NCBI GenBank assembly: GCA_026003475.1
Contig: BPHJ01000001.1
Span: 1,301,189-1,365,188 of the forward strand
DNA from: Candidatus Kapaibacterium sp.
Lineage (GTDB): Bacteria > Bacteroidota > Ignavibacteria > Kapaibacteriales > NICIL-2
Direction of reading: 5' to 3'
DNA: 64,000 nt
In this document: positions 15,163 through 30,502 of the stretch, in pieces
How positions within the stretch are numbered: the stretch's first letter is position 1
Layout: each line of letters opens with the position of its first letter
Notes under the pieces: generated by a model
The model's database searches: none
What the model was told of the DNA's origin: nothing
What the model saw: the letters and a program-made list of their open reading frames with translations, nothing else
Translations under genes and position numbers: made by a program

Positions 15163-15442
15163 GATTATCGCCCTCGGGTTTATGGTATTTGCTCTGGCAA
15201 ATTGCAATCAGCAGGATGAGCGTTTTCTCGATACCTACACCGACATCCTGATCATCCGCATGAGCGAATCAGACTCCACGGCAGCACAGCGCAAAGTTGC
15301 CGCTGCATTGGCACAGCATGGATACAGCGAGGCAGATTTCCGGCGGGAGTTTTTCGATCGAGCACGGGAGCCTGAGAACTTGCGCGTGTTGATAGACTCT
15401 GCGCGAGCTCGGGCTCTGCGTCAGGTAGCTGCTCAGAAGTGA
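15149..15442 (+). CDS. small lipoprotein of unknown function
   Basis: A 97-aa protein with a lipoprotein signal peptide: MQRGRIIALGFMVFALANC, lipobox LANC, Cys19. The mature part is about 79 aa, charged and helical (DERFLDTYTDILIIRMSE, then two helices with an ADFRREFF centre). The ATG at 15149 is chosen because it precedes the signal peptide; it overlaps lon by 14 nt. The 3' end overlaps the convergent DUF5723 gene by 10 nt. The short helical layout resembles small DUF4296-type lipoproteins of Bacteroidota, but the match is not firm. Confidence 0.68.
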   Translation: MQRGRIIALGFMVFALANCNQQDERFLDTYTDILIIRMSESDSTAAQRKVAAALAQHGYSEADFRREFFDRAREPENLRVLIDSARARALRQVAAQK

Positions 15443-16875
15443 AAGCGCGCAAGTGCAACCGCAGCGGATAGGACCGGACGCTTCGGCAGGATCAATGACG
15501 CCACATCTTGCGACGAAATGCCAAGTTCCCAGCGTCCATCCCAGAGCGAAAGCTGGATTGCAAGCGGAAGCGCCCAGCCGGCAATCGTCCCCAGACGGAT
15601 CCCAGCACTGACGATCAGCTGCGCATTGATCCAATAGCGCGTGCCAAGGGTTACGTAGAACGGCGGCGCGCCGGGTGCTGTTGGTTCCAGCGGGATAGTA
15701 GCCTCGACTCCAATATCGCGCTCAATCCCGATAGCGCGGCTCAGCGCCAATCGCAATCTCGTCGGCAGTTGCCGCCGCACACCCCGAAGACCCGACCACT
15801 TGAAATACCCGCCCTCGCCAGTGATGTTCTGCGCTTCGGCAAAGATGTTGAAGCTCGAAAATCCCGTCGTAATCATCCCATTGAGCACAGTATCGAGAAC
15901 GGTAAACACATTGCCATCCCAATACACCGACCCAATATCGAGCATTGCCAGCGCTGCACGCCAGGTGTTATGGAGCTCCACCGTAAAGCCAACATCGGCG
16001 CCATACCCGCTCCCGACAGGTAGAAGCCCGCTACCAGGTCGTAGTGATGGTGTCGTCGCTTTGCCGTAGTTGACGTTGAAATAGGGTGAGATTGCCGAGT
16101 ATGCGGTAATCGTGCGATTGTCAATGCGTCCATCGAGCAGAATATACCCCTCGATCAAGCGCAGAGTAACACCACCATAGAGCTGAAGGCCAGACCCGCT
16201 AACCAGCCGCACACCGTAACCGATGGCATAGTCTCGCAACCAACTCATCGTGATTCGGCTTGAATCGAACAGTTCCGAATACCGTTTCGGTTGGCGTGCA
16301 TAGCCTACTGTGTCGCCTTGCCAGTTGAGTGCCGTGGAATCGAAGTAGGAATCGAGTCTACCTAAGAATGCAATCCGCGACAGCACTGAGTTCAAGCGGA
16401 ATTCCGCACTCATGCGGTCGCGTACGCTGAGAGCAATGCCGCCCCAACCGGAGCTTTGGTACGCAACGCCCAGCAGCAGTGCGTCAATGTTGAAGGCGAT
16501 CCCACGACCAGCAAATTGATTGGCAAGTTGGCGCTTGTCCTCCAGGGAAAATCGCTCGGTACCCACTTGCAGCACGATCGAGCGAAGTTGATCGGTACGC
16601 AGCGCATCCGACGCGATGCTGGCGCCCAACTCGCCGGCACCAATACTCCAATGGCGCTGGGTGATGTATTCACCGTATTCCATCGGCGAGCCAAGCGTGA
16701 AGGTAATCGTCTCCGGCACAAAACCAAGGTTAGCAGGATTGCACCAGAGCGCTTGGTAGTCACTGGTAAACAGCGGTGCCAGCACTACCGCGCCGGACCG
16801 TGGCGAATCGCTCAGCTCAACTTGCCCATAGCAAACAACGCTTAGACCAATCCATGCCACAAGTACACGCATCAT
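15433..16875 (-). CDS. DUF5723-like outer-membrane beta-barrel protein
   Basis: A 480-aa exported protein: signal peptide at residues 1-17 (ending CYGQ), then a long series of amphipathic beta strands ending in a terminal phenylalanine (ALARFHF), typical of outer-membrane barrels. Early residues QALWCNPANLGF match the NPA(N/S)-type motif seen in DUF5723 and PorV/FadL-like proteins. It is last in the XerC-Gfo/Idh operon; its ATG overlaps the oxidoreductase stop (ATGA). The ligand or role is unknown; DUF5723 proteins are common in T9SS-containing phyla. Confidence 0.78.
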   Translation of the reverse strand: MMRVLVAWIGLSVVCYGQVELSDSPRSGAVVLAPLFTSDYQALWCNPANLGFVPETITFTLGSPMEYGEYITQRHWSIGAGELGASIASDALRTDQLRSIVLQVGTERFSLEDKRQLANQFAGRGIAFNIDALLLGVAYQSSGWGGIALSVRDRMSAEFRLNSVLSRIAFLGRLDSYFDSTALNWQGDTVGYARQPKRYSELFDSSRITMSWLRDYAIGYGVRLVSGSGLQLYGGVTLRLIEGYILLDGRIDNRTITAYSAISPYFNVNYGKATTPSLRPGSGLLPVGSGYGADVGFTVELHNTWRAALAMLDIGSVYWDGNVFTVLDTVLNGMITTGFSSFNIFAEAQNITGEGGYFKWSGLRGVRRQLPTRLRLALSRAIGIERDIGVEATIPLEPTAPGAPPFYVTLGTRYWINAQLIVSAGIRLGTIAGWALPLAIQLSLWDGRWELGISSQDVASLILPKRPVLSAAVALARFHF

Positions 16876-17873
16876 TGTACCGGCAACGATGACAACCGCT
16901 CGGCAACACGTTGTTCGATTTCTTGCGCAAGTCGGAGTGCAGCGATGCCATCGGCAAGACCGACGACAGCCGGTGCACCATTGAGAATGCTTGCCACAAA
17001 CGCTCGGTGCTCTTCCATGATTGCATTGGTAGGTTCCAGCTGCGGATGGTCATAGAGGATCGTTTTAGAACCGAAGCCTGGAACTTCGATACCAGCCTGA
17101 TCGGAGGAGGAAAGTGCCTGTTCACCCTCGGCAACGAGACGATAGACTTCCAAGTCCGGAGCGGAAAAATCCAGCGACAGATATGCATTCGGTTGGAAGA
17201 GCCGCAGCTTGCGCAACGGCTTCGGCGTCAGCCGTGATGCCGTTAGGTTAGCAATGCACCCACCAGCAAATTCAATGCGAGCATTGGCAATATCCACCGA
17301 ATCACTGACGACTGCAACCCCGTGCGCCTCGACACGTAAAGCAGGCTCGCCTACCAACGCTACCACAAGGTCCAGATCGTGGATCATCAAATCGCCGATC
17401 ACCGACACATCGGTACCGCGAATGCGAAACGGACTGAGTCGGTGCGCTTCGATAAAGAGGGGCCTGGTCACATAGCGTCGCGCTGCGACGAATGCTGCAT
17501 TGTACCGTTCAACGTGCCCAACATGGACCACTGTCCCTGCACGTGCAGCAGCTTGTGCAATGTCTTCTGCTTCGGCAACCGTTGCAGCCACAGGCTTCTC
17601 GATGAGCACATGCTTGGCTCGAGCGAGCGCAGCCAATACCACTTCCGCATGGCTGCTGGTCGAGACGGCTACCGTAACAGCATCGCTGGCATCGAGTGCA
17701 TCGCTGAGTGTGGGAAATGCCGTTACGCCAAGCTCCCGCGCAAGCTCCTGGGCACGCTCTGGGACGAGGTCGTACACTCCGACTAATCGTGCTGCTGGTT
17801 GCTGCATCCAGAGCCGTGCGTGAATGCTACCGAGATACCCACAGCCAATAACGGAAACACCGAGCATGCTCAT
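16872..17873 (-). CDS. Gfo/Idh/MocA family NAD(P)-dependent oxidoreductase
   Basis: A 333-aa two-domain oxidoreductase acting on a sugar or inositol-like substrate. The N-terminal Rossmann fold has VIGCGYLGSIHARLW (G-x-G-x-x-G type, residues 8-20), and the family signature LIEKPVA near residue 90 carries the conserved lysine. The second catalytic region, IGDLMIHDLDLV, contains the expected D-x-x-x-H-D arrangement near residue 165. Homologues in this phylum are often found near envelope biosynthesis genes, where they act in nucleotide-sugar or lipid A sugar metabolism. Here the neighbours are a recombinase (4-nt overlap upstream) and DUF5723 (4-nt overlap downstream), which do not reveal the substrate. 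Confidence 0.88.
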   Translation of the reverse strand: MSMLGVSVIGCGYLGSIHARLWMQQPAARLVGVYDLVPERAQELARELGVTAFPTLSDALDASDAVTVAVSTSSHAEVVLAALARAKHVLIEKPVAATVAEAEDIAQAAARAGTVVHVGHVERYNAAFVAARRYVTRPLFIEAHRLSPFRIRGTDVSVIGDLMIHDLDLVVALVGEPALRVEAHGVAVVSDSVDIANARIEFAGGCIANLTASRLTPKPLRKLRLFQPNAYLSLDFSAPDLEVYRLVAEGEQALSSSDQAGIEVPGFGSKTILYDHPQLEPTNAIMEEHRAFVASILNGAPAVVGLADGIAALRLAQEIEQRVAERLSSLPVQ

Positions 17874-18874
17874 GAGCGGGTCGTTGATAGTTGGTTGGAC
17901 GTTGCTGGAAGCTCTGAAGCAGGATTCGTGTGCGCAGCTCTTGGTGACTGCTTTTTCTCATCGTGAGCCCGGGGATGGGCTTGTTGGTATGCTGCGCGCA
18001 GTCGTTCGATGGACACATGTGTATAGACTTGCGTCGCGCGCAGCGATGCGTGTCCTAACAGTTCGGAGACAGCTTGCAGGTCAGCGCCACGATCGAGAAG
18101 ATGCGTGGCAAAACTGTGCCGGAAGATATGGGGTGAGCGCCGGGGAGCATCGCTGATACCTGTCAGCAGTGCATTGATTGCTCGCCATGCCTGGGGCTGG
18201 CGGAGTGGTTTGCCTCGCGGTGAGACAAAGAGAGCTTGCTCTGCCGGCGACGCCGCAAGCTCGTGCCGGCGCGCCAGATATTGTTCGATAGCATCAAGAG
18301 CACGGCGACCGAGGAGAACAATTCGTTGCCGGCCTCCCTTACCAATCACACGAACCGAGAGTGTGGCTCGATCAATCGAATCGCAGCGGAGACTGAGCGC
18401 CTCGCTGATCCGCATGCCACTGCTGTAGAGAAGTTCCACCAGCGCCGCAAGACACAGTCCCCACGGTGTCGAGCGGTCAATGCACTCGAGTGCCCTGGTA
18501 ACTTCGTCCTGTTGGAGCACAGCGGGGAGCGGCTTATCGAGCTTCGGCATGCTGATCGCTGCTGCAGGATTGCGCCGGCACCACTGGTGCTGCTGGCAGT
18601 ATCGGAAAAATCGCCGCGCTGCACTGAGTTTGGTCGCGATCGTCCGCTTTGCATTTCCTTTCTGGTACAGGCTGGCAACGAAGCTGCGTATGTGCTGTGG
18701 CGTTACCTGCTCCAGGTCAATTGATACACTTGCGGACTCTACCAAGAAAGACACCAGTTCTGCAACGGTATCACAATAGCGTTTCCGGGTGTGGGGTCGG
18801 TATCGGCTGCTTGCCAGCCAGATCGCAAAGCGCTCCTGCGCAGTCTGGATGTCCATCGGGGGATGGGATGTCAA
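17870..18874 (-). CDS. xerC: tyrosine recombinase, XerC/XerD type
   Basis: Site-specific recombinase that resolves chromosome dimers at dif. The 334-aa protein has an N-terminal SAM-like core-binding domain (residues ~10-95) and a catalytic domain with the full set R-K-H-R-H-Y: R in SSGMRISEAL, K in GKGGRQR, H-x-x-R in HIFRHSFATHLL, H in LLGHASL, Y in TQVYTHV. A ~35-residue polar tail follows the tyrosine, longer than usual. The start could also be the ATG at 18856. The gene leads a minus-strand operon rather than sitting by mobile DNA, which favours a housekeeping role. XerC and XerD cannot be distinguished here. Confidence 0.9.
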   Translation of the reverse strand: MTSHPPMDIQTAQERFAIWLASSRYRPHTRKRYCDTVAELVSFLVESASVSIDLEQVTPQHIRSFVASLYQKGNAKRTIATKLSAARRFFRYCQQHQWCRRNPAAAISMPKLDKPLPAVLQQDEVTRALECIDRSTPWGLCLAALVELLYSSGMRISEALSLRCDSIDRATLSVRVIGKGGRQRIVLLGRRALDAIEQYLARRHELAASPAEQALFVSPRGKPLRQPQAWRAINALLTGISDAPRRSPHIFRHSFATHLLDRGADLQAVSELLGHASLRATQVYTHVSIERLRAAYQQAHPRAHDEKKQSPRAAHTNPASELPATSNQLSTTRS

Positions 18875-18982: not shown

Positions 18983-20416
18983 ATGGAACAGCTCTGCCAC
19001 TACATTGATGGCAGCTTCCTTCCCACATCCGACTGGATTGATGTCTATGAGCCTGCCACCGGAAGTGTCTATGCTCAAGTTGCCCGTGGCACCCAAACGG
19101 AAGTTTCCCGCGCTGTTGCTGCGGCAGAGCAAGCGTTTCCCGCATGGTCTCAGCGTCCTGCAACCGAACGTGCCGCGATTCTTTTTCGCATTGCCGATCT
19201 CCTCGAAGAACGCCTCGAAGCATTTGCCCATGCCGAGTCCCTCGATCAAGGAAAGCCCCTGTGGCTTGCGCGAACGCTCGATATTCCACGCTCGATAGCG
19301 AACCTGCGATTTTTTGCGGCAGCGGCTCTCCACGTTTGGTCTGAAACACATGCAGCGCCTGGCCTGCTCAACTACACCCTCCGCCATCCATTGGGAGTTG
19401 TCGGCTGCATTTCGCCCTGGAACTTGCCCCTGTACCTGTTCACGTGGAAAATTGCCCCAGCGCTTGCCTTCGGCAATACGGTCGTCGCGAAGCCATCCGA
19501 GCTGACGCCACTGACCGCGACGCGTTTTGCCGAATTGTGCCAAGAGTGCGGATTGCCTCCAGGAGTGCTCAATATCGTGCACGGCTACGGTCCCGAAGCT
19601 GGCGCTGCCATCGTGGAACATCCGAGCATTCGCGCAATTTCGTTTACGGGCAGCACTGCAACCGGTGAGTACATCGCACGCACAGCAGGACCACGGTTCA
19701 AGAAGCTCTCGCTCGAACTCGGTGGCAAGAACCCCACGATCGTGTTTGCCGATGCAGACCTCGATCGTGCCATTCCAGAGATTGCCCGCGCTGCCTTCCT
19801 CAACCAAGGCGAAATTTGCTTGTGCGGATCGCGCTTGCTTGTGGAACGAACAATCGCTGACGACGTGCTACTGCGGCTACGCGAGCATGTGCGTACGTAT
19901 CGCGTCGGTGACCCCTTCGATGAGCAGACAACGATTGGTGCGCTCGTTTCCGAAGGACACTACCACAAAGTACTCGGTGCAATCGAGCAGGCTCAGCGCG
20001 ATGGTGGCACGATCGTTGTCGGTGGCAAAGCAGTACACCCTTCGGGGCGATGCGCCAAGGGATGGTTTGTCGAACCCACGATAATCACTGGTCTGGAGCC
20101 AACGTGTGCTGCCAATCAAGAAGAAATCTTCGGACCTGTTGTAACGGTCATGCCTTTTGCGTCCGACGAGGAGGCTATCGCACTGGCTAACAATGTCCGC
20201 TACGGCTTAGCTGCGAGCGTCTGGACTCAACACCTAAGCCGTGCACACAGCGTTGCAGCGCGCCTTGCCGCGGGAATTGTCTGGGTCAACTGCTGGATGG
20301 TGCGCGATCTTCGTACACCCTTCGGCGGCACCAAGGATAGTGGCATCGGTCGCGAAGGTGGCTGGGAAGCATACCGCTTTTTCACAGAGCCTCAGAACAT
20401 ATGCATCAAACTGTGA
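18983..20416 (+). CDS. aldehyde dehydrogenase, likely 2-aminomuconate/2-hydroxymuconate semialdehyde dehydrogenase type
   Basis: NAD-dependent oxidation of an aldehyde to an acid. The 477-aa protein has the ALDH core: PWNLPLYLFTWKIAPALAFGN (NAD site), FTGSTATGEYI, general base E245 in LELGGKNP and nucleophile C279 in NQGEICLCGSR. The GEICLC form of the nucleophile motif is typical of the ALDH8/hydroxymuconic-semialdehyde subgroup rather than of betaine-aldehyde dehydrogenases. About 2.1 kb downstream on the same strand lies a RidA protein of the 2-aminomuconate deaminase type, which would take the product of this enzyme. The ATG at 18983 is preferred over an upstream in-frame one because it gives the usual N-terminus. 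Confidence 0.85.
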   Translation: MEQLCHYIDGSFLPTSDWIDVYEPATGSVYAQVARGTQTEVSRAVAAAEQAFPAWSQRPATERAAILFRIADLLEERLEAFAHAESLDQGKPLWLARTLDIPRSIANLRFFAAAALHVWSETHAAPGLLNYTLRHPLGVVGCISPWNLPLYLFTWKIAPALAFGNTVVAKPSELTPLTATRFAELCQECGLPPGVLNIVHGYGPEAGAAIVEHPSIRAISFTGSTATGEYIARTAGPRFKKLSLELGGKNPTIVFADADLDRAIPEIARAAFLNQGEICLCGSRLLVERTIADDVLLRLREHVRTYRVGDPFDEQTTIGALVSEGHYHKVLGAIEQAQRDGGTIVVGGKAVHPSGRCAKGWFVEPTIITGLEPTCAANQEEIFGPVVTVMPFASDEEAIALANNVRYGLAASVWTQHLSRAHSVAARLAAGIVWVNCWMVRDLRTPFGGTKDSGIGREGGWEAYRFFTEPQNICIKL

Positions 20417-20441
20417 ACATGTCGAACATAGAGCCTGTGCC

Positions 20442-22544
20442 ATGATCTACCGCCTGTGGACCGTTGTTGCCGTTGCCACGCTCCTTGCAACTTATTTGCC
20501 GGCACAGTGGCAACTGCTGGCACGAAAAGACGGTGCTGACGTTGGTCGTTTCTTCCAAAGCTCCTCGGGTACGCTCTTTGCGCAACTGTCGAGCCAAACA
20601 AAGATTTTCCGTTCGTTCGATGGGGGCATAACATGGTCACCAGTAGAGCTACCCCCGCTTCAGGGCATCATTCACTTTGCCCCTTGCACTGATTCGCTGG
20701 GGTTGGAAGCGCTCGTTGTCGTTACGGGGGGAGCCTTTTATCGCTCGACCGACAACGGATTATCGTGGCAGCAGATTCCGCCTCCAAGTGGGATCACATC
20801 GGGCGAATCCATCCTGAGCATTGAAGGGTTGCGGTACGGCGAATTGATCATTCTTACCGAAACGGCAGGTGGCAATGCTGTGTACGTGTCGCGGGATCGC
20901 GCCGAATCGGTAATGCGGATTGGCGACATTCCCTCTGCACCGTGGCGCTTTGCTCAACTGCACGACTCGGCAATCTACTGCTACGGCAGTGCCGGACTCT
21001 ACCGCATCAACTGGCGCATGCAAACGATCGCCCGTGTTGCGACTGAGCACGTAACTGCACTGGTTTCAAACCAGGAATACAGCGGCGCACCGGTCATCTA
21101 CTGGGCGATTCGTAACCAAACTGTTGTGCGTTCAACCGATGGTGGCACCAGTTGGACCGATGCCCATGCTGGATTATCCATGCTGAGTTCGTCGGCTCTG
21201 CTGTTGCCCGCTCGTGAGGGAACGATGTTCTGCTTCAACCCATTGGGAGATTCAACAATCGTGTACCGTCGTTTTGCCAGTTCGACCCAATGGGCACTTC
21301 TGACGCGTCAAGGATTCGCCGCCACCGATGCTATTGCAACGCTGAGTGGCGCGCTGATGGTTGCCACGTCGGGTGGTGTGTTCCGCTCTGAAGAAAGTGG
21401 CATGTTCTGGTCGAATTCCTCCAGCGGTATCCAAGGCGTCAGCATCATCTGTGCATCGTATGTGCCCAGCGTTGCGCTGGTGGCAGCCTCCCAACGCGGT
21501 GAGCTGTTCCGCTCGGTCAATGCTGGGTTGAGCTGGACGACCATTGCCAAACTACCTGCTGGCACCACGCCAACCGACCTGTGGGTAAGCCCCAACGGTC
21601 TTGTCCTGGTCGGCACTACCAACGGCGCTTGGTGCTCCACCGATGGCGGCGCCACCATCCGTCAATGCTCGACAGCAACCGGTGCGATTAGCGACACAAT
21701 CGTCAGCGTTGGTACATTCAAAGGCACGGCGGTCGCTGCAGCCCGGTCGCGGGCATACGTTTCCTTGAATGGCGGACTTTTATGGCTTGAGCTCGGGCTG
21801 CCGATGATAGGCTCCAACCAGATCATCAGCTTTCGGTCGAACGACTCCTTGGCGATTGTTGCAACAACAAGCAGTGTCATTGCTATCGAATCGGTTGCGC
21901 AACAACCAGTGTACCGAACGATCGCAACCTTTGGCCAACCAATTGTTGGGTGCGACATCGCCGCTGATGGTTCAATTGGCGTGATAACTGACTCGAGTGC
22001 TACGCTGGTTTATCATCGCTACCGCACCGATGGTCAGCTCGAAGCCCGTGTTGTTCTTCCGACGGGAACATTGCACAGCATAGCACTCTCGCGTGGAGGG
22101 TTTGCGCATATTGCAGCCGATGCTGCGCTCGCACTCTACACCATCGGTCGTCGGGATACAGACTATCGGACCGACACCAGCATCGCTGAACTTGTGCTCT
22201 ACCTGCGCCGTCAATCCTCCGGTGAGATGATTGCGACGACATCCGACGGCGGCATCTACCGTGCTGCTGCTGATTCTATCCTGTCCGTCGAACGGGCTCG
22301 CACCGATATTGTGACGCTGTGGCCCAATCCAACTGCCGAAGAGCTGCACATTGAAGCAGGCACCAGCGCTATTTGGGGCGTCCACATCTGCGACGGACTG
22401 GGCAGAAGTGTCCTCAGCTTATCCATGGCAATTCCTCAACAGTCGCTTCACCTGAAACTGCCGACGATTGCACCGGGTTATTACATCGCCGCCGTTCGAA
22501 CAGCGAAGAGCGTGATTGTGCGACCACTTGTGATCATTCGCTAA
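20442..22544 (+). CDS. secreted beta-propeller protein (BNR/sortilin-like repeats) with T9SS sorting domain
   Basis: A 700-aa exported protein. Signal peptide at residues 1-23 (ending LPAQW). The body has repeated BNR/Asp-box motifs of S-x-D-G-G-x-x-W type: RSFDGGITW, RSTDNGLSW, RSTDGGTSW, FRSEESGMFW, RSVNAGLSW, CSTDGGATI, SLNGGLLW. This pattern marks a sialidase- or Vps10-like propeller of the photosynthesis-assembly/sortilin class; no catalytic sialidase residues are identifiable. The last ~80 residues form a T9SS type A domain (LWPNPTAEELHIEAG). It begins 25 bp after the aldehyde dehydrogenase stop and ends 4 bp before the RidA gene. Confidence 0.86.
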   Translation: MIYRLWTVVAVATLLATYLPAQWQLLARKDGADVGRFFQSSSGTLFAQLSSQTKIFRSFDGGITWSPVELPPLQGIIHFAPCTDSLGLEALVVVTGGAFYRSTDNGLSWQQIPPPSGITSGESILSIEGLRYGELIILTETAGGNAVYVSRDRAESVMRIGDIPSAPWRFAQLHDSAIYCYGSAGLYRINWRMQTIARVATEHVTALVSNQEYSGAPVIYWAIRNQTVVRSTDGGTSWTDAHAGLSMLSSSALLLPAREGTMFCFNPLGDSTIVYRRFASSTQWALLTRQGFAATDAIATLSGALMVATSGGVFRSEESGMFWSNSSSGIQGVSIICASYVPSVALVAASQRGELFRSVNAGLSWTTIAKLPAGTTPTDLWVSPNGLVLVGTTNGAWCSTDGGATIRQCSTATGAISDTIVSVGTFKGTAVAAARSRAYVSLNGGLLWLELGLPMIGSNQIISFRSNDSLAIVATTSSVIAIESVAQQPVYRTIATFGQPIVGCDIAADGSIGVITDSSATLVYHRYRTDGQLEARVVLPTGTLHSIALSRGGFAHIAADAALALYTIGRRDTDYRTDTSIAELVLYLRRQSSGEMIATTSDGGIYRAAADSILSVERARTDIVTLWPNPTAEELHIEAGTSAIWGVHICDGLGRSVLSLSMAIPQQSLHLKLPTIAPGYYIAAVRTAKSVIVRPLVIIR

Positions 22545-22548
22545 GCAC

Positions 22549-22971
22549 ATGGAGCAACACATCATCCGCAGCAGAAACGCCCCTGAACCAGTCGGTGCCT
22601 ATCCCCATGCACGGAGGGTTGGAGGCTTTGTGTTTCTCTCGGGGGTTGGGCCGCGACTTCCCGGCAGTGGCGAGATTCCCGGCACCCAATTCGATGAGCA
22701 GGGGAACGTCGTCGCATACGACATCACAGCTCAGGTGTTATCGGTTTTTCGCAATGTTCGCGCAATCCTCGAAACTGCTGGCGCACGGTGGGAGGACATC
22801 GTGGACGTGACCGTGTTTTTGACAAACATGAAGCGCGACTTCCCTGTGTTCAACAAACTCTGGCAAGAGCATTTCGAAGGAGTCAATGCTTGCCGGACCA
22901 CGATTGAAGTTGGCTCCCTACCGACACCTATTGCCGTCGAACTGAAAGTTATCGCCTATGTTGGTACGTAG
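22549..22971 (+). CDS. amnD: RidA-family protein, 2-aminomuconate deaminase-like
   Basis: The 140-aa protein has the RidA (YjgF) chorismate-mutase-like fold. The block RNAPEPVGAYPHARRVGG, then FLSGVGPRLPGS and IPGTQFDEQGNV, closely fits 2-aminomuconate deaminases of kynurenine and 2-aminophenol pathways, which convert 2-aminomuconate to 2-oxo-3-hexenedioate and ammonia. ACRTTIEVGSLP carries the RidA-family arginine. A generic enamine/imine deaminase role is the alternative. The gene name is by similarity only. The upstream aldehyde dehydrogenase would supply the substrate; the dioxygenase and decarboxylase of the pathway are not in the window. It overlaps the next T9SS cargo gene by 14 nt. 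Confidence 0.78.
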   Translation: MEQHIIRSRNAPEPVGAYPHARRVGGFVFLSGVGPRLPGSGEIPGTQFDEQGNVVAYDITAQVLSVFRNVRAILETAGARWEDIVDVTVFLTNMKRDFPVFNKLWQEHFEGVNACRTTIEVGSLPTPIAVELKVIAYVGT

Positions 22972-25900
22972 TCTTCTGCTTGCTTTCGGCCTGGCATGGA
23001 TCCTAACCGGCGCCCTGCCAGCACAGCCAGTTCTGTCGTACCTCATACCCGACATCGGCGCACCGGGAATGGCGGTGTACGTTGAAATTATCGCGCCGAA
23101 CACAGCGGACGTTGACGGTACAAACTTCAGTGCCAGCGACGGCATCTATTTGAACAATCCTGCCGATCCCTTTCGCATTGAGCTTGTTCGTCCAGAAGAT
23201 TCCACGAAGATCGTTTTTGGTCCCTGCATTGTCTCGTGGTATGGGCGACTGGTCAGCACGATTGTGTTCATCTCTCCGGATGCAACACCCAATTCATGGG
23301 ATTGGCGTCAGCTTCTTCCCCAATGGCGCATCCCGTTTCGGATTCGCACGCCGAATGGCGTAACCCCTACCGACACGTTCTACATCGTCCAGCCGATTCC
23401 CGGTGGCGACTTTCGGACCGAAAGTCAAACTGTGTTAGGACGCCCTCCGTTTGGGGTACGATCGCGGCGTGGAGCCTTGCTCTTCGATAGTTTGATTTTG
23501 GGCGCGCGAACCTATACAGTTTCGACCGACGATCCAGACCAGAACGCTGCAAACGGTAATCAAGGGTATTTGCCGCTGGTCTTGCTCTCGCGCGGACCGA
23601 TACGCGGAATTTCCGAATCCCAGACGCGGCTGAGTCTGGATGCGAGCGGTATTGATGGCGGTCCCGGTGGCGGGGGCGGTGGTGGCGAATTTTGCGACAT
23701 CGTCGGCGGTGGTTCGGCTGGGGGGAGCGGCTACACCGGCGGCGGTCGTGGTGGAAACAATTCCCCCAACAGCTACCGCGCAACCGGTACGGGCAGCGGA
23801 CTCAACGGCGCCTCTCTCAACCAGACAGGTCCCGGCACCGATGGCGGAGCGTATGAATCCTCCGGTGGAGGGACAGGACATCCTTTCGGTGCAAGCGGTG
23901 TCGGATGCAGCAGTGGTCCGAATTGCTCCCCCGATGGTGCCCGCGGTGGTGCAAGTGGCGTCTCCGATAACCGCGATGGTGCCGGCGGCGGATACGCAAC
24001 CGAGGGTAGCTCAACCAGCATTGATGGGAACAACGGCGGCAAAGTCCACGGAGATAGTACGCTCGTTCCATTGGCAGGTGGTTCTGGTGGCGCAGGCGGT
24101 AATCCTCGGAACAGTTCCTTTCCATTCACCGCATGCGGTGGCAGAGGTGGCGGCGGTGGCGGCGCTACTGCGGTCCTCGGATTGAGTATCGAACAGCTTT
24201 CCATCACTGCCAACGGTGGAGATGGATCTGGGAGCGGTTCGACCACTTCTCGACGCGGTGGCAGTGGCAGTGGCGGTGGCATCTACCTTGCCGCCCCACT
24301 CAATGTGCACCAGGTTACGATCCAAGCTCGCGGGGGCGGTCAGTCCGCACCGACGGGCAAAGGTGGCGATGGCAGGACGCGTGTTGATGCAGGAAATCTT
24401 TCAGCCCTATCCACTACCCCATCGCCCTATCGCGGTCCGACCATGGACACGCTCACCATCGCCCGCACCGATTTTGATGTAGAGGGAAGTGGCTTCCCAG
24501 GCAAACGAATTCTGCTCTTTGGCAAACCGTCGAACGGCATCTGGCAGATTCTCGACTCGACAATAGTTGGAAGTGACAGCCGCTGGCGTATTCGCGTGCG
24601 CCTTCCGTCCGGGGCAAGCACGCTGTACCTTGCAGCGGCACAGCGAGAACAACCTTCCATCACTACTCGGTATGTGGCTCGACCCGTTGGCGTCTTTTCC
24701 CATGCCTCTGGACGTATCCTCCGCATTCTTGCTGCACCGATTGAGGCACTCCCTTCACAACTCAACATGGGACGCATCTCCTGTGCCAGCGGCAGCGTTG
24801 CTCTTGATTCGCTCCAGGTGCGAAATCCAGGTGCAGTGCCGATAAGCATCACCGGCGGCGGCTTTCTCAATCCAGCCAGCGGATTTACCATTGTGCGCCC
24901 ACAGCCACTGCAAGCAATACTTGCTCCACTCGGGACGATTCCTATCGTGATCGAATATCGCATTCAACCGTCGCGCTATGGCGTGCAGCGCGATACGCTC
25001 GTTATCCGTGGGGACACACCAGAGCGAGTGTTGGCACGCATTCCGGTCGAGATCACCGTTGACAGTGCTGGCGTGATCTTGACCGATACTGCCACCGTAC
25101 AGGCAATCAGCTTCATTGATTTTGCCGAAGCGTGCCGCGGAATCAGCAAAGACCGCACGTTTGCGCTCCGCCTTGTCGGCAACACACCAACAACAATCAC
25201 CAGCATAACAACGGGAACATCGCTTTTTAGCGTCAGCACACCATCACGCACCACGCTCGGAGTTGGCGATACCGTGCATCTTCACCTGCAAGCAACACCG
25301 CCCGACGTCGGCGATTATTTCGACACACTCACCATCGTCAGCACGGTGTGCAACCAAACACTGCAGATTCCGCTGCATGTCCGCGGTGTTGTCTCCCAAA
25401 TTGTGCGTATCGGTGCTCCTGGCGGTGTTGTGGACTTTGGCAATGTTCGCGTCGGCAACAGCCGAACGCTGCGTATTGGCATTGCTAATCCGAGCAGGAC
25501 CGATTCTGTGATCGTCCAACCGCCGCTGCAACCATCGGCACCTTTTTCGTGGCAGACAGTCCCGCCGGGACTTACCTTCCCACGCGCGATTGGTGCAGGA
25601 GACACACTCTGGATAGATGTCACCTTCGCTCCAACTGCGATGGGAGTTGGAAGCGATTCTCTGGTGTTTTTCACTGTTCCCTTTGGGGTCAGTTGCCCCG
25701 ATACCGCTCGGTTCCTGCTCCTTGGTCAAGCGACAGTGTCGTCGGTTGTCCCAACAAAAACGATGCTTGATTTTGGCATCCTCGAATGTGGCAGGCGGCG
25801 TGATACACTTTGGCTCAAGAATACGGGCAACACGACGGCGGAGGTTTTCTTTCCGGCAACCATCAGCGGCACCGATACACAGTACTTTTCCATCGTCGAA

Positions 25901-27775
25901 GAACCGCCCGCAGTCGTTACACTTCGTGCGGGTGATTCTGTGCGGATCATCATCGAAGCGCGAATCTTCCCCCAAAACCCGGACGGTATCAAAACAGCAA
26001 CGCTTACCGTCACTGTCCGCGATGACTCAACGCGAACACTGACAATTCCTCTCCGTGTGCAGCAGCAGGCACTCGTGCTCGAATTCACGCCGCAACCCTA
26101 CGTCTTGATAGATGTACCCGTCAACTTTACCTCGCAATCACAGCCACCACTGACCGTGCGTAATCTCAGCAGCGTGCTTGCCTGTATCGCTGATGTGCGC
26201 ACCACGCGGCCAGAGATCGTGCCACTGATTCGAACGATCAACATTCCGCCTTATTCAGCCAGCCGCGACCTCTACTTCAACATCACGCCAACATCGCTAA
26301 CGCCGATTGACGATACCATCACGATTATTCTCTCCTGTCCCTGCACGGACACGTTCAAAATTCCAATTCGCATCATTCCGACCATCAATGGTTTGGCAAT
26401 GACTCCGCGCCCTCTCGACTACGGAGCAGTTCCACCTTGCACCACGGTGCGGCGCTTGCTCACGCTCCGGAACAACGATCCAGGTAATACCGCCACCATC
26501 GAGAACGTTTCGATTGGCGGTACCGACAGCAACCTCTTCCGGATCACCGGGGCACCGTGGTCACAGCTTCCCTACAGCATCCCGCCAGGTTTTAGCATCA
26601 CGCTGGAAATTGAGTTCAATCCTGCTGGGACTCGCCCCGGACCAAAGGACGCACACTTTGCCATTCGCTATGTCATCAGCGGTCGGGAAGTTGACGACAC
26701 CGTCCAACTCAGCGGTGAACGAACCGTTCCCATTGATGCTGACTCGCTGCTCGACTTCGGCGAGGTCAAACAAGGAGACTCCAAAACTCTGCCTCTTCGA
26801 CTTGTCAACAACTACACCCGCAGCATGACGTACACATTCGACGTCGCACAGTGGGATAATTACTTTGCCGTCACACCATCGGTGATCAACATTGACGTGA
26901 CGACCAAGAACGGCACCGTGGATGTCGAGTTCAACGCACAGGACCTTGGCCAGTATTGGGATACACTCTGGGTCCGTTTTAGCAGTTTGGGGTTCAACTG
27001 CACCGATAGTATGCCGGTCCTCCTGCATGCGATTTCCCTTCCTGGGATAGGATTTTCAATCTGGCTGGACTCCTTGCAGATTCTCAATCCCCGCGACCGG
27101 GACGTTGCGCTCAACATCTACGCACAACTGGACACAAACCTGGTATTGCCGAACGTTCAGCTCCTGCTGGTACTCGATCTGCCCAATCAAATTTTCATGC
27201 CGCGTGGTGTTCGCGCACGGGGTGGGCGCATTCTTTCGTTCAACAGCCGAACGCATGATCGGCACGTAATCACGATCACTGTTGACACCTTGCTGAACGC
27301 CATCAACAACCAGCCGCAAGTTATCGCACAACTTCTCGGCGATGCAATCCTCGGTGACCGGCAGTGTGATTCAGCGTACATTGCACAGGTACGCTGGACC
27401 AATAGTGGCATCAAGCCTACCACCTGGAATAATCCCTCTTCGGGAAATGGCATGCTCTGCCTGACGCTCTGCGGTGCTGGTGGTGCACGGCTTCTGGGCT
27501 CGCAGCTTCAACTTCCCCTGCTCACGGTAGCACCCAATCCCATAAGCGACGAAGCTACCATCACCATCGCGGCGAACGAGCGCGGCACCTATGCGATCGA
27601 ACTTGTCTCCCTCGATGGTGGTGCGGTGCTGGCAAAACACGCCATTGGCACATTGCAAGCTGGAATGGCTTACCAGTATGTGCTCGACATGAGCCGATAC
27701 ACAACAGGGGTTTATCTACTGCGGCTGTGGACGCCCAGTGGTGTCCGGACAACGCCACTGGTCCGCATACGCTAA
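22958..27775 (+). CDS. giant secreted T9SS cargo: glycine-rich segment, multiple choice-of-anchor-D domains, C-terminal sorting domain
   Basis: A 1605-aa exported protein. Signal peptide at residues 1-23 (ending LPAQP). Residues ~230-480 are extremely rich in Gly/Ser/Asn/Asp with few hydrophobics. From ~600 to ~1360 about six or seven choice-of-anchor-D/ASPM-like beta-sandwich domains follow, each with a D-F-G-x-[VIL] start and a D-T-L-x-[VI] strand. Residues ~1365-1515 form a cohesin-like module ending GGARLLG, and the T9SS type A domain begins at VAPNPISDEATI near 1525 and ends LVRIR. Likely a cell-surface adhesin or matrix protein. Its ATG overlaps the RidA gene by 14 nt, an unusually tight link for a secreted giant. 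Confidence 0.85.
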   Translation: MLVRSLLLAFGLAWILTGALPAQPVLSYLIPDIGAPGMAVYVEIIAPNTADVDGTNFSASDGIYLNNPADPFRIELVRPEDSTKIVFGPCIVSWYGRLVSTIVFISPDATPNSWDWRQLLPQWRIPFRIRTPNGVTPTDTFYIVQPIPGGDFRTESQTVLGRPPFGVRSRRGALLFDSLILGARTYTVSTDDPDQNAANGNQGYLPLVLLSRGPIRGISESQTRLSLDASGIDGGPGGGGGGGEFCDIVGGGSAGGSGYTGGGRGGNNSPNSYRATGTGSGLNGASLNQTGPGTDGGAYESSGGGTGHPFGASGVGCSSGPNCSPDGARGGASGVSDNRDGAGGGYATEGSSTSIDGNNGGKVHGDSTLVPLAGGSGGAGGNPRNSSFPFTACGGRGGGGGGATAVLGLSIEQLSITANGGDGSGSGSTTSRRGGSGSGGGIYLAAPLNVHQVTIQARGGGQSAPTGKGGDGRTRVDAGNLSALSTTPSPYRGPTMDTLTIARTDFDVEGSGFPGKRILLFGKPSNGIWQILDSTIVGSDSRWRIRVRLPSGASTLYLAAAQREQPSITTRYVARPVGVFSHASGRILRILAAPIEALPSQLNMGRISCASGSVALDSLQVRNPGAVPISITGGGFLNPASGFTIVRPQPLQAILAPLGTIPIVIEYRIQPSRYGVQRDTLVIRGDTPERVLARIPVEITVDSAGVILTDTATVQAISFIDFAEACRGISKDRTFALRLVGNTPTTITSITTGTSLFSVSTPSRTTLGVGDTVHLHLQATPPDVGDYFDTLTIVSTVCNQTLQIPLHVRGVVSQIVRIGAPGGVVDFGNVRVGNSRTLRIGIANPSRTDSVIVQPPLQPSAPFSWQTVPPGLTFPRAIGAGDTLWIDVTFAPTAMGVGSDSLVFFTVPFGVSCPDTARFLLLGQATVSSVVPTKTMLDFGILECGRRRDTLWLKNTGNTTAEVFFPATISGTDTQYFSIVEEPPAVVTLRAGDSVRIIIEARIFPQNPDGIKTATLTVTVRDDSTRTLTIPLRVQQQALVLEFTPQPYVLIDVPVNFTSQSQPPLTVRNLSSVLACIADVRTTRPEIVPLIRTINIPPYSASRDLYFNITPTSLTPIDDTITIILSCPCTDTFKIPIRIIPTINGLAMTPRPLDYGAVPPCTTVRRLLTLRNNDPGNTATIENVSIGGTDSNLFRITGAPWSQLPYSIPPGFSITLEIEFNPAGTRPGPKDAHFAIRYVISGREVDDTVQLSGERTVPIDADSLLDFGEVKQGDSKTLPLRLVNNYTRSMTYTFDVAQWDNYFAVTPSVINIDVTTKNGTVDVEFNAQDLGQYWDTLWVRFSSLGFNCTDSMPVLLHAISLPGIGFSIWLDSLQILNPRDRDVALNIYAQLDTNLVLPNVQLLLVLDLPNQIFMPRGVRARGGRILSFNSRTHDRHVITITVDTLLNAINNQPQVIAQLLGDAILGDRQCDSAYIAQVRWTNSGIKPTTWNNPSSGNGMLCLTLCGAGGARLLGSQLQLPLLTVAPNPISDEATITIAANERGTYAIELVSLDGGAVLAKHAIGTLQAGMAYQYVLDMSRYTTGVYLLRLWTPSGVRTTPLVRIR
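23640..24400 (+). repeat. glycine-rich low-complexity coding segment
   Basis: About 760 bp encoding ~250 residues dominated by Gly (runs such as GGPGGGGGGG and GGRGGGGGG) interspersed with Ser, Asn, Asp and Thr. At DNA level it is a dense ggtggc/ggcggt purine-G-rich strand. The repeat units are irregular, so this is compositional bias rather than a tandem array. Confidence 0.8.
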
Positions 27776-27787: not shown

Positions 27788-28099
27788 ATGAAAACGCTTC
27801 GACCCCAAAACTCCCTGCTTGCTGCTGCGCTCATGGCATGCACGCTTCTGCTGCAGCTGCTGAGCGCATGGCACGTTCACCATTGGCAAGCAGATCCCGT
27901 ACCAGCACTCGACACAGCAGAGCACCAGCACTGTATGCTCTGCCATGTCCCTCTCGTGCTGGTAGAACCTTCCAGTGCTGAAGCGGGCATCCTACTTGAG
28001 CAAACTGTTCCCACTGTGCTCCCAACGAGCGAAGGCGAACAGTACTTACCCGTATCGCCGACATCATCACGTGCCCCGCCCTTCTGCGCTGTCGCCTAA
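27788..28099 (+). CDS. small exported/membrane protein with His/Cys motif (DUF2946-like)
   Basis: A 103-aa protein with an N-terminal hydrophobic helix (residues ~10-27) that could be a signal peptide or anchor. A His/Cys-rich stretch follows: AWHVHHWQ and, 20 residues later, EHQHCMLCHVP. The C-x-x-C with neighbouring histidines resembles DUF2946-type proteins often encoded beside copper or other metal TonB receptors. The polar tail ends CAVA. It is directly upstream of a TonB receptor (45-bp gap), suggesting a shared role. Function is inferred from context only. Confidence 0.6.
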   Translation: MKTLRPQNSLLAAALMACTLLLQLLSAWHVHHWQADPVPALDTAEHQHCMLCHVPLVLVEPSSAEAGILLEQTVPTVLPTSEGEQYLPVSPTSSRAPPFCAVA

Positions 28100-28144
28100 G
28101 CTCTCGACGACATTCAGCGCAGTTCATCATTTCCACTTGCTTCC

Positions 28145-30502
28145 ATGTTGTTACCAATTGCGGTGGCAGTTGCCAGTGCGCACATTGCACTGGCGGCTGA
28201 TAGCCTTCGAAGCGTTCACCTCCACGGCATCGTGCGCGATAGCAGCAGCGGTGCACCGTTGGCAGGTGTCACGGTGGTCATCCGTGGCAGCCGAATCGTT
28301 CGGCGTAGCGCCAGTGACGGGCGTTTCGACGTTGATCATCTTGCACCCGGCACGTATGGGCTGGGATTTCGGCTTTTGGGCTACCGCGATCGGCAGCTGG
28401 ATATTGCTCTTGTGCAGGATACCACCATCGAGGTATTCCTGCTGCCATTGGGCGTCCAGACCGAACCTGTTGTTGTCGAAGCTTCGCGCCCGGGCGGACA
28501 CGGCACCGAACACGTCGAACAACTCGACACGCGCAAACTCGATCGTCACCGTGGACAGACGTTCGGCGAATTGATCGAGCAGGTGCCGCAGGTGTCGCTC
28601 TTACAAACAGGCGCGGCAGTTGCAAAGCCGGTCATCCGTGGCTTCCATAGCCAACGTGTCCTCATCACCAGCAACGGCATCCCGCATCAAGCACAGGAAT
28701 GGGGACTCGACCATGCCCCAGCACTTGATCCCTTCCTACCGGCGAGTATTGCAATCGTCACTGGTGCAGCAAGTATCGAGGATTCGTACGCGGCTGTTGG
28801 TGGCATCGTGCGGATCGAGGAATCACAGTTGGCGTTCCATCGTCCCTGGGAGGGGAAACTCTCGCTTGTCGGTGCAAGCAACAACGGTATGGCGGCAGCT
28901 TCGGTCCTTGTGAAGGGCAGCGATGCTCTCGTCAAAAACACGGCCTACCTGCTGCAGGGCAGCGCGCACATTGCCGGCGATAGTCGCACCCCAGGCTACG
29001 TCCTCTCGAACACTGGCTCTCGTCAACTGAGTAGTCTGGTGACGATCGGCTACGATGCCGGGTCGTGGCAACACTCGGTGAGCTATTCCTTCTTCGCTAC
29101 CGAACTTGGCATCTTAGCTGCCGCGCACGTAGGGAATGCTGCGGATTTGGAGCGAGCCATTGCGAACGGTTCACCGCTCGTCATCCGGCCATGGACCTAT
29201 ACCATCGGCAACCCACGTCAGGAGATTATGCACCAAACGCTCCACGTGACAAGCACCTATTCGGGCGATAACGGTACACTCGAAATTCGTTACGGATGGC
29301 AGCGCAACGATCGCAGCGAATACGACGCTCACAATGCACGCTACCGCGACAGCGCCGCCTTGCAGCAGGCACTCCAAAAACCCGCCATCGCGCTTTCGTT
29401 GGCAACGTATCAACTCGAGGTTCGGTATCGCCAGTCATCCTCGAATGGGAGCACAACGTTTGGAGTTCATTTCCTTCGTCAGAGCAACATCCGCAGTGGG
29501 AATGTCTATCTTGTCCCCGACTACCTCCTCTACGAAGGCGGATTGATTGGCATCCATACCCGAACGGTCGGAGCCTGGATTCTCAGTGCGGGCATCCGTA
29601 GCGATTTTCAGTGGATGCGAGCACGCCCCTACGATCGCACTCGTGGAATCCTTGAGCCAGATTCAACCATGCTCTTTGCAGGCATCGCTGCCCATTGCGG
29701 TGCAGAACGGCTTCTCGGTACCCACACACGGATACAGATCAATCTTGCAAGCCACTGGCGCCCACCCTCTGCCGTCGAGCTATATGCCAACGACCTCCAC
29801 CACGGAACTGCACAGTACGAAATCGGCGACCGTCATCTCGGCGTCGAGCGCTCGGTGACACTCGATCTGCACATGCAAACAATGCTGGGTAATGTCCAAC
29901 TCGATCTGTCTGGATACGCCACGTACTTCCCACGATGGATACAGCTTCTTCCGGAACCGACCCCAACAGTGACCTACCGCGGAGTCTTCCCAACGATGCG
30001 CTACACCCAGCGCCGCGCTGCATTCGTCGGTAGTGAAGCATCGTGTTCGGTTCCACTGACTACAGCAGTACGGCTTGATGCGCAGCTTGCCATCGTCCGC
30101 GGCTTCGACCCCAGCAGCAACGAGTGGCTCCCATTTCTCCCAGCAGACCGCGCACGCATTGCACTCCATGTCCACCTGGACCGCATCAGCAGCGAAACCG
30201 ATTTCTACGGAGAATTTGCTCTCGGCGCAGTTCGTCGCCAAACAGCAGTCTCCAGCGCCACATTCGACTACGCTCCACCTCCGCCAGGCTATGCGACGCT
30301 CGACCTTACTATTGGGGGGACATTCCGCCTTCTTGGCACCACCATGGCTGCCACCGTCAGCGTCACCAATATCCTTGACCAGCCGTATCGCGACTACCTG
30401 AGTCGCTACCGCTATTTTGCGCTCGACCCAGGCAGAAACATCACGTTTCGATTGACGATTCCATTTGGTTTGTATCACCCACTTCGCGAAAGCTCACAAT
30501 GA
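28145..30502 (+). CDS. TonB-dependent outer-membrane receptor
   Basis: A 785-aa outer-membrane active transporter. Signal peptide at residues 1-18 (ending ALAAD), a carboxypeptidase-like regulatory domain (residues ~25-110: GIVRDSSSGAPLAGVTVVIRG, later FRLLGY), a plug domain (KPVIRGFHSQRVLITSNGI, then QEWGLDHAPALD and the IVTGAASIEDSYAAVGGIV strand), and a barrel ending with ITFRLTIPFGLY. The plug wording GLDHAP is common in zinc, copper and cobalamin/siderophore receptors; the neighbours, a His/Cys-rich small protein and a His-rich lipoprotein, favour a metal. The stop overlaps the lipoprotein start (ATGA). No TonB box can be fixed. Confidence 0.9.
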   Translation: MLLPIAVAVASAHIALAADSLRSVHLHGIVRDSSSGAPLAGVTVVIRGSRIVRRSASDGRFDVDHLAPGTYGLGFRLLGYRDRQLDIALVQDTTIEVFLLPLGVQTEPVVVEASRPGGHGTEHVEQLDTRKLDRHRGQTFGELIEQVPQVSLLQTGAAVAKPVIRGFHSQRVLITSNGIPHQAQEWGLDHAPALDPFLPASIAIVTGAASIEDSYAAVGGIVRIEESQLAFHRPWEGKLSLVGASNNGMAAASVLVKGSDALVKNTAYLLQGSAHIAGDSRTPGYVLSNTGSRQLSSLVTIGYDAGSWQHSVSYSFFATELGILAAAHVGNAADLERAIANGSPLVIRPWTYTIGNPRQEIMHQTLHVTSTYSGDNGTLEIRYGWQRNDRSEYDAHNARYRDSAALQQALQKPAIALSLATYQLEVRYRQSSSNGSTTFGVHFLRQSNIRSGNVYLVPDYLLYEGGLIGIHTRTVGAWILSAGIRSDFQWMRARPYDRTRGILEPDSTMLFAGIAAHCGAERLLGTHTRIQINLASHWRPPSAVELYANDLHHGTAQYEIGDRHLGVERSVTLDLHMQTMLGNVQLDLSGYATYFPRWIQLLPEPTPTVTYRGVFPTMRYTQRRAAFVGSEASCSVPLTTAVRLDAQLAIVRGFDPSSNEWLPFLPADRARIALHVHLDRISSETDFYGEFALGAVRRQTAVSSATFDYAPPPPGYATLDLTIGGTFRLLGTTMAATVSVTNILDQPYRDYLSRYRYFALDPGRNITFRLTIPFGLYHPLRESSQ

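Follow-up and report, generated by a model that had tools for sequence, protein, structure and literature searches.

The aldehyde dehydrogenase (ALDH) and the RidA-family protein encoded in the window, which here denotes the whole 64,000-nt stretch of DNA analyzed and which sits within the single 2.16-Mb contig of the source genome, are interpreted, with a probability of roughly 0.87, as the 2-aminomuconate-6-semialdehyde dehydrogenase (AMSDH) and the 2-aminomuconate deaminase (AMD) that act in tryptophan degradation via 3-hydroxyanthranilate (the kynurenine route). According to this reading, a beta-propeller gene was inserted between the two in family f1, and the exported proteins encoded at the locus are most likely passengers of the operon. 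The observations that underlie it are homology, key residues, clade membership, co-occurrence, and gene order, from which the reactions, the co-transcription, and the passenger role are predicted.

Layout of the locus and its exported proteins

The AMSDH-type ALDH (477 aa) is encoded on the + strand at 18983..20416, with an ATG at 18983 and a stop at 20416. It is followed after 25 bp by the gene of a 700-aa beta-propeller (Asp-box/Sortilin-Vps10-like) that carries a signal peptide and a putative T9SS-type C-terminal domain (20442..22544, + strand) and, after a further 4 bp, by the gene of the kynurenine-type RidA-family protein (140 aa; 22549..22971, + strand). The motifs GEICLC in the ALDH and GAYPHARRVGG and FLSGVGPR in the RidA protein are all found, and the coordinates and sequence thus agree with a sequence-only reading of this DNA that had described the three genes, their strand, their spacings, and these motifs. 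That reading omitted a fourth gene on the + strand (22958..27775), which starts inside the end of the RidA gene with a 14-bp overlap and encodes a secreted choice-of-anchor-D/ASH-repeat protein of 1605 aa with a T9SS-like tail. The spacing suggests that the ALDH, propeller, and RidA genes are co-transcribed. A terminator scan gave no match on the + strand within the intergenic gaps; promoter matches numbered 10 where 5.8 were expected (sd 2.4), and for terminators there were 14 matches where 11.2 were expected (sd 2.8). Close behind on the same strand (27788-30502) lie genes for a 103-aa protein with no Pfam match and a TonB receptor with a carboxypeptidase-regulatory domain, which may extend the operon. 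Upstream of the AMSDH gene, at 15433-18874, divergent DUF5723, GFO/IDH/MocA, and XerC-like genes are present, and their order is kept in families f1 and f2.

The propeller passes the Pfam cut-offs for Sortilin-Vps10 and BNR. Its T9SS tail scores 21.4 against a cut-off of 23 (NCBIfam) and 24.3 against 27 (Pfam), and two orthologues exceed the NCBIfam cut-off (29.6 and 24.8 versus 23). A propeller gene lies between those of AMSDH and AMD in all 8 genomes of family f1 (six of genus g1, one of g2, and one of g3), including one g1 genome (G002) in which the contig ends inside the propeller. In families f2 and f5, the AMSDH and AMD genes mostly lie within a few bases of each other or overlap, with about 100 bp between them in one f2 genome; they are followed by the ASH-repeat gene, and there is no propeller between them. 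Propeller sequences are 46-53% identical within the genus and ~25% identical to those of other genera, compared with 76-79% and 61-63%, respectively, for AMSDH. The window holds no propeller paralogue, and AMSDH loci in other phyla showed no propeller. Linkage between the ASH-repeat and deaminase genes extends over families f1, f2, f5, and f6 and is thus broader than that of the propeller; the start of the ASH-repeat gene mostly overlaps or nearly touches the deaminase gene, and the two genes also lie together in genome G012, where AMSDH is encoded elsewhere.

Assignment of the dehydrogenase and the deaminase

The ALDH matches PF00171 with 577 bits, and its closest relatives in the PDB are 2-aminomuconate-6-semialdehyde dehydrogenases (4u3w, 1.5e-138; 4i1w, 4.5e-137). 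Read from an alignment to 4i1w, residues R103, N147, E245, C279, and R441 of the window protein correspond to Arg120, Asn169, Glu268, Cys302, and Arg464 of the Pseudomonas enzyme, and all five are invariant in alignment A1 with relatives. Glu268 and Asn169 we take, from general knowledge of ALDHs, to be catalytic, so that the window protein unites the ALDH fold with the catalytic Cys302, Glu268, and Asn169 and with both arginines that contact the substrate. In the Pseudomonas enzyme, Arg120 and Arg464 have been reported to hold the substrate, and the role of Cys302 is described in the same work (PMC4286809).

Curated models and phylogeny place the protein near, and outside, the 2-hydroxymuconate-semialdehyde dehydrogenases (HMSDHs). 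On TIGR03216, the model named for 2-hydroxymuconic semialdehyde dehydrogenase, it scores 569.7 bits, below the curated cut-off of 693.25. An AMSDH homologue of Myxococcus whose gene belongs to a full kynurenine operon likewise stays below it (605), whereas proteobacterial AMSDHs exceed the cut-off (858 and 861), indicating that the model misses the clade of the window protein and fails to separate AMSDH from HMSDH. The NCBIfam ALDH models are without a family for this widespread AMSDH clade. In a tree of 57 rows, the window protein belongs to a 45-row clade (support 100/99) made up of Kapaibacterial ALDHs and of ALDHs of other bacteria that were picked for their kynurenine-gene neighbours; many members, from several phyla, lie within kynurenine operons. 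AMSDHs of the CnbC and NbaE types group with HMSDH in the sister group of this clade and hence do not share it with the window protein, which is not decisive since the proteobacterial AMSDHs are themselves near HMSDH. Collectively, these data indicate that the window ALDH is very probably an AMSDH, with a predicted activity of NAD-dependent oxidation of 2-aminomuconate semialdehyde. As a separate observation, AMSDHs of the genus group with those of Rhodanobacter/Lysobacterales and not with those of the sister genera, a pattern in which the deaminase differs; horizontal replacement of AMSDH in the genus was considered and dropped, as an AU test failed to reject a single clade (p 0.09).

The RidA protein matches PF01042, and its closest relative in the PDB is the 2-aminomuconate deaminase AmnE (6izh, 1.3e-22). 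When aligned to 6izh, it keeps Arg117, Glu133, and Lys135 of AmnE, while Glu88 is replaced by Asp (residues as given in PMC6742747); the PF01042 fold is thus present along with the RidA arginine and glutamate. A tree of 50 rows unites the window protein and deaminases of kynurenine operons in a clade of 43 rows (99/100), which excludes generic RidA as well as the divergent RidA encoded on the 2-aminophenol plasmid pCNB. Genomes of the order likewise carry two classes of RidA, one of the window type with E below 1e-48 and a generic one with bit scores of ~80 or less. An in-frame TGA was flagged in the deaminase genes of two genomes (G041 and G046), and the case in G041 is a normal stop at the gene's end. 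The window RidA protein is therefore very probably a 2-aminomuconate deaminase, an activity predicted from its sequence relationships.

The distribution of the two genes points in the same direction. Of 61 genomes surveyed in the order, 40 encode AMSDH and 39 of these also encode AMD (Fisher p 2e-15), and HAAO is present in all 39 AMD genomes, with genomes counted in both cases without correction for relatedness. The sole genome with AMSDH only is an 86%-complete assembly in which the contig stops just after AMSDH, inside the propeller gene. Complete AMSDH-AMD-HAAO-ACMSD-KYNU-KMO operons are found in Myxococcus, another Myxococcaceae genome, and a planctomycete (L219, L228, and L229), and a second planctomycete (L284) has all members except KMO within the stretch examined. 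Within the order to which the window belongs, families f8 and f10 have AMSDH near HAAO, ACMSD, KYNU, and KMO (L167-L170), and Burkholderiales plasmids (Mycetohabitans, Caballeronia) have the gene order ALDH-RidA-HAAO-ACMSD. Pathway genes other than AMSDH occur within the stretch examined at 36 of 80 named AMSDH loci and are lacking there at the other 44; dispersed pathway genes, as in the source genome, are therefore also common. Co-occurrence, the operons of relatives, and HAAO and ACMSD in the source genome itself consequently link the window ALDH to the pathway. The suggestion in the sequence-only reading that the two form a functional AMSDH-AMD pair is well supported by the nearest PDB relatives, key residues, RidA clade, operons, and 39/40 co-occurrence, and the phylogeny that might have contradicted it instead places the RidA protein inside the kynurenine-type AMD clade and the ALDH in a strongly supported sister of the CnbC/NbaE/HMSDH cluster.

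Two further genes were noted in kynurenine operons of other lineages. The complete operons of Myxococcus and Flaviaesturariibacter contain or adjoin a gene for an SDR oxidoreductase (L219 16070-16807 and L230 9097-9882, respectively), which may act on a later intermediate. A PF04199 cyclase-family gene inside the planctomycete operon (L229 13571-14317) is a possible kynurenine formamidase.

The remainder of the pathway in the source genome

Genes for HAAO (252 bits, cut-off 146) and ACMSD (human ACMSD is the nearest solved structure, 3e-117) adjoin each other with an 18-bp gap at 351.6-353.2 kb of the contig, ~970 kb from the window pair. KMO is encoded at 77.5-78.9 kb (best PDB relative KMO, 1e-109), and the end of its gene overlaps the start of nadC, encoding quinolinate phosphoribosyltransferase, by ~23 bp (L006 1198-1220), an arrangement that is likely to represent a coupled kynurenine-to-NAD unit. 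A TDO homologue at 467.6-468.7 kb passes Pfam and scores 158.7, below the NCBIfam equivalog cut-off of 390.7. TDO (with this reservation about its score), KMO, HAAO, and ACMSD are thus all represented in the source genome, each pathway gene found there having an open frame. The earlier expectation that the dioxygenase and decarboxylase must be encoded elsewhere, or else the pathway is partial, holds in its first part; as to the second, the upstream enzymes are present save for kynureninase, which was not found in this assembly.

In the proposed scheme, HAAO would open the ring of 3-hydroxyanthranilate derived from tryptophan to yield ACMS, and ACMSD would decarboxylate ACMS to 2-aminomuconate semialdehyde. 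AMSDH would then oxidize the semialdehyde with NAD+ to 2-aminomuconate, from which AMD would release ammonia by hydrolysis to form 4-oxalocrotonate. ACMS that escapes ACMSD can undergo ring closure to quinolinate and feed NAD synthesis. Such a leak fits the overlap of KMO and nadC in the source genome, and the KMO-nadC unit hints that some of the flux can pass via quinolinate to NAD.

Alternative readings and comparison with known systems

The pair could instead comprise an HMSDH of catechol meta-cleavage, or another semialdehyde dehydrogenase, and a generic RidA that deaminates 2-aminoacrylate or imines, the nearness of the two genes being due to chance. AMSDH and HMSDH are indeed closely related, crystallized AMSDH binds 2-hydroxymuconate semialdehyde too (PMC4286809), and proteobacterial AMSDHs cluster with HMSDH in the ALDH tree. 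Yet such a pairing by chance is very unlikely given the tight co-occurrence of AMSDH with HAAO and AMD, the many members of the ALDH clade in a kynurenine operon context, and the placement of the RidA protein apart from generic RidA, a second RidA-like match being encoded elsewhere in the source genome. A different question is raised by kynureninase, which searches of the source assembly with TIGR01814, KYNU_C, and Aminotran_5 failed to find. The Aminotran_5 search gave eight matches, two of which were read by eye and judged to be a cysteine desulfurase of the NifS/IscS type and an isopenicillin-N-epimerase-like protein. Were the enzyme truly lost, the pathway would be broken, and the pair would use only 3-hydroxyanthranilate supplied by neighbours or would be decaying. 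Set against this are the presence of kynureninase in each of the five congeneric genomes (the copy in G005 scores 413 against a cut-off of 246) and the open frames of the pathway genes that were found. The gene that adjoins kynureninase in three congeners (G005, G001, and G002) is also absent from the source genome, an empty search that by itself shows nothing. Moreover, the source genome is 95.3% complete, and its single contig starts within a CRISPR array (L183 1-3300) and ends inside a clpC-like gene (L186 19800-20000), so that the chromosome is not closed. With kynureninase in all congeners, its neighbour missing as well, and an open-ended contig, the absence is more likely due to a gap in the assembly than to loss, and a broken pathway is regarded as rather unlikely.

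Continuing with the reading of an AMSDH-AMD pair, the place of the exported proteins has still to be weighed. The simplest reading of the gene orders is that the propeller is an insertion, specific to family f1, into an older AMSDH-AMD unit that left transcription and translation of the operon running; the opposite course, in which f2 and f5 lost the propeller, is less favoured given that loci of other phyla lack it. An old and closely spaced pair would thus have received a fast-evolving exported propeller in f1, with a giant exported repeat protein encoded behind it. Conceivably, the propeller, perhaps joined by the ASH-repeat protein, acts in the same process as the pair, for example in surface capture of peptides or aromatics, and is co-regulated with tryptophan catabolism, as might be argued from the position of the propeller in 8 of 8 f1 genomes of three genera (one cut by a contig end), the mostly tight spacing on both of its sides, and the tie between the ASH-repeat and deaminase genes in four families. 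The pair nevertheless lacks a propeller in f2 and f5, none was seen at AMSDH loci of other phyla, the ~25% identity between genera implies little constraint on its sequence, and neither protein has a domain suggestive of a role in aromatic metabolism, making a shared process distinctly unlikely. A stronger version, that the two proteins are tryptophan- or peptide-scavenging parts and that co-expression of capture and catabolism was selected in Kapaibacteria, appears highly improbable. As the propeller is family-specific and the pair is mostly adjacent in sister families, the odd combination is more likely an operon insertion than a functional link, and the propeller and ASH-repeat protein are most likely passengers. 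The secreted protein within the pair that the sequence-only reading had found odd is thus a real arrangement, stable in f1, that is limited to one family and weakly constrained.

The pathway itself is already well known, and the case is mostly ordinary: an uncultured bacterium of a little-studied lineage carries a pathway familiar from elsewhere. What the case adds is the Kapaibacteria, for which little metabolism has been described, as a further group with a kynurenine catabolic pathway that is nearly complete, and in which the KMO-nadC unit points to NAD synthesis. The propeller, in turn, is a small but clear example in which an unrelated exported protein entered a catabolic operon and stayed across three genera.

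Among known systems, the 2-hydroxymuconic semialdehyde dehydrogenases of the XylG/NahI/DmpC type (TIGR03216) share the ALDH branch and the active-site residues of the window protein, which differs in falling below the cut-off of that model and in belonging to a separate sister clade; at the locus, no catechol 2,3-dioxygenase gene lies beside it. The 2-aminophenol route (pCNB/AmnE) includes the same two reactions, and AmnE (6izh) is the best PDB match of the window RidA. The RidA of pCNB, however, is 25% identical to the window protein and lies outside its clade, and no 2-aminophenol dioxygenase gene adjoins the pair at the locus. The bacterial 3-hydroxyanthranilate/kynurenine route of the nba/kyn type (Colabroy and Begley, 2005, as cited in PMC4433059) shares AMSDH, a RidA-type AMD, HAAO, and ACMSD with the source genome. 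Elsewhere, these form one AMSDH-AMD-HAAO-ACMSD operon (L181, L219, and L228), whereas in the source genome they are split into two pairs ~970 kb apart, one of which, unlike operons of the nba/kyn type, houses an exported propeller.
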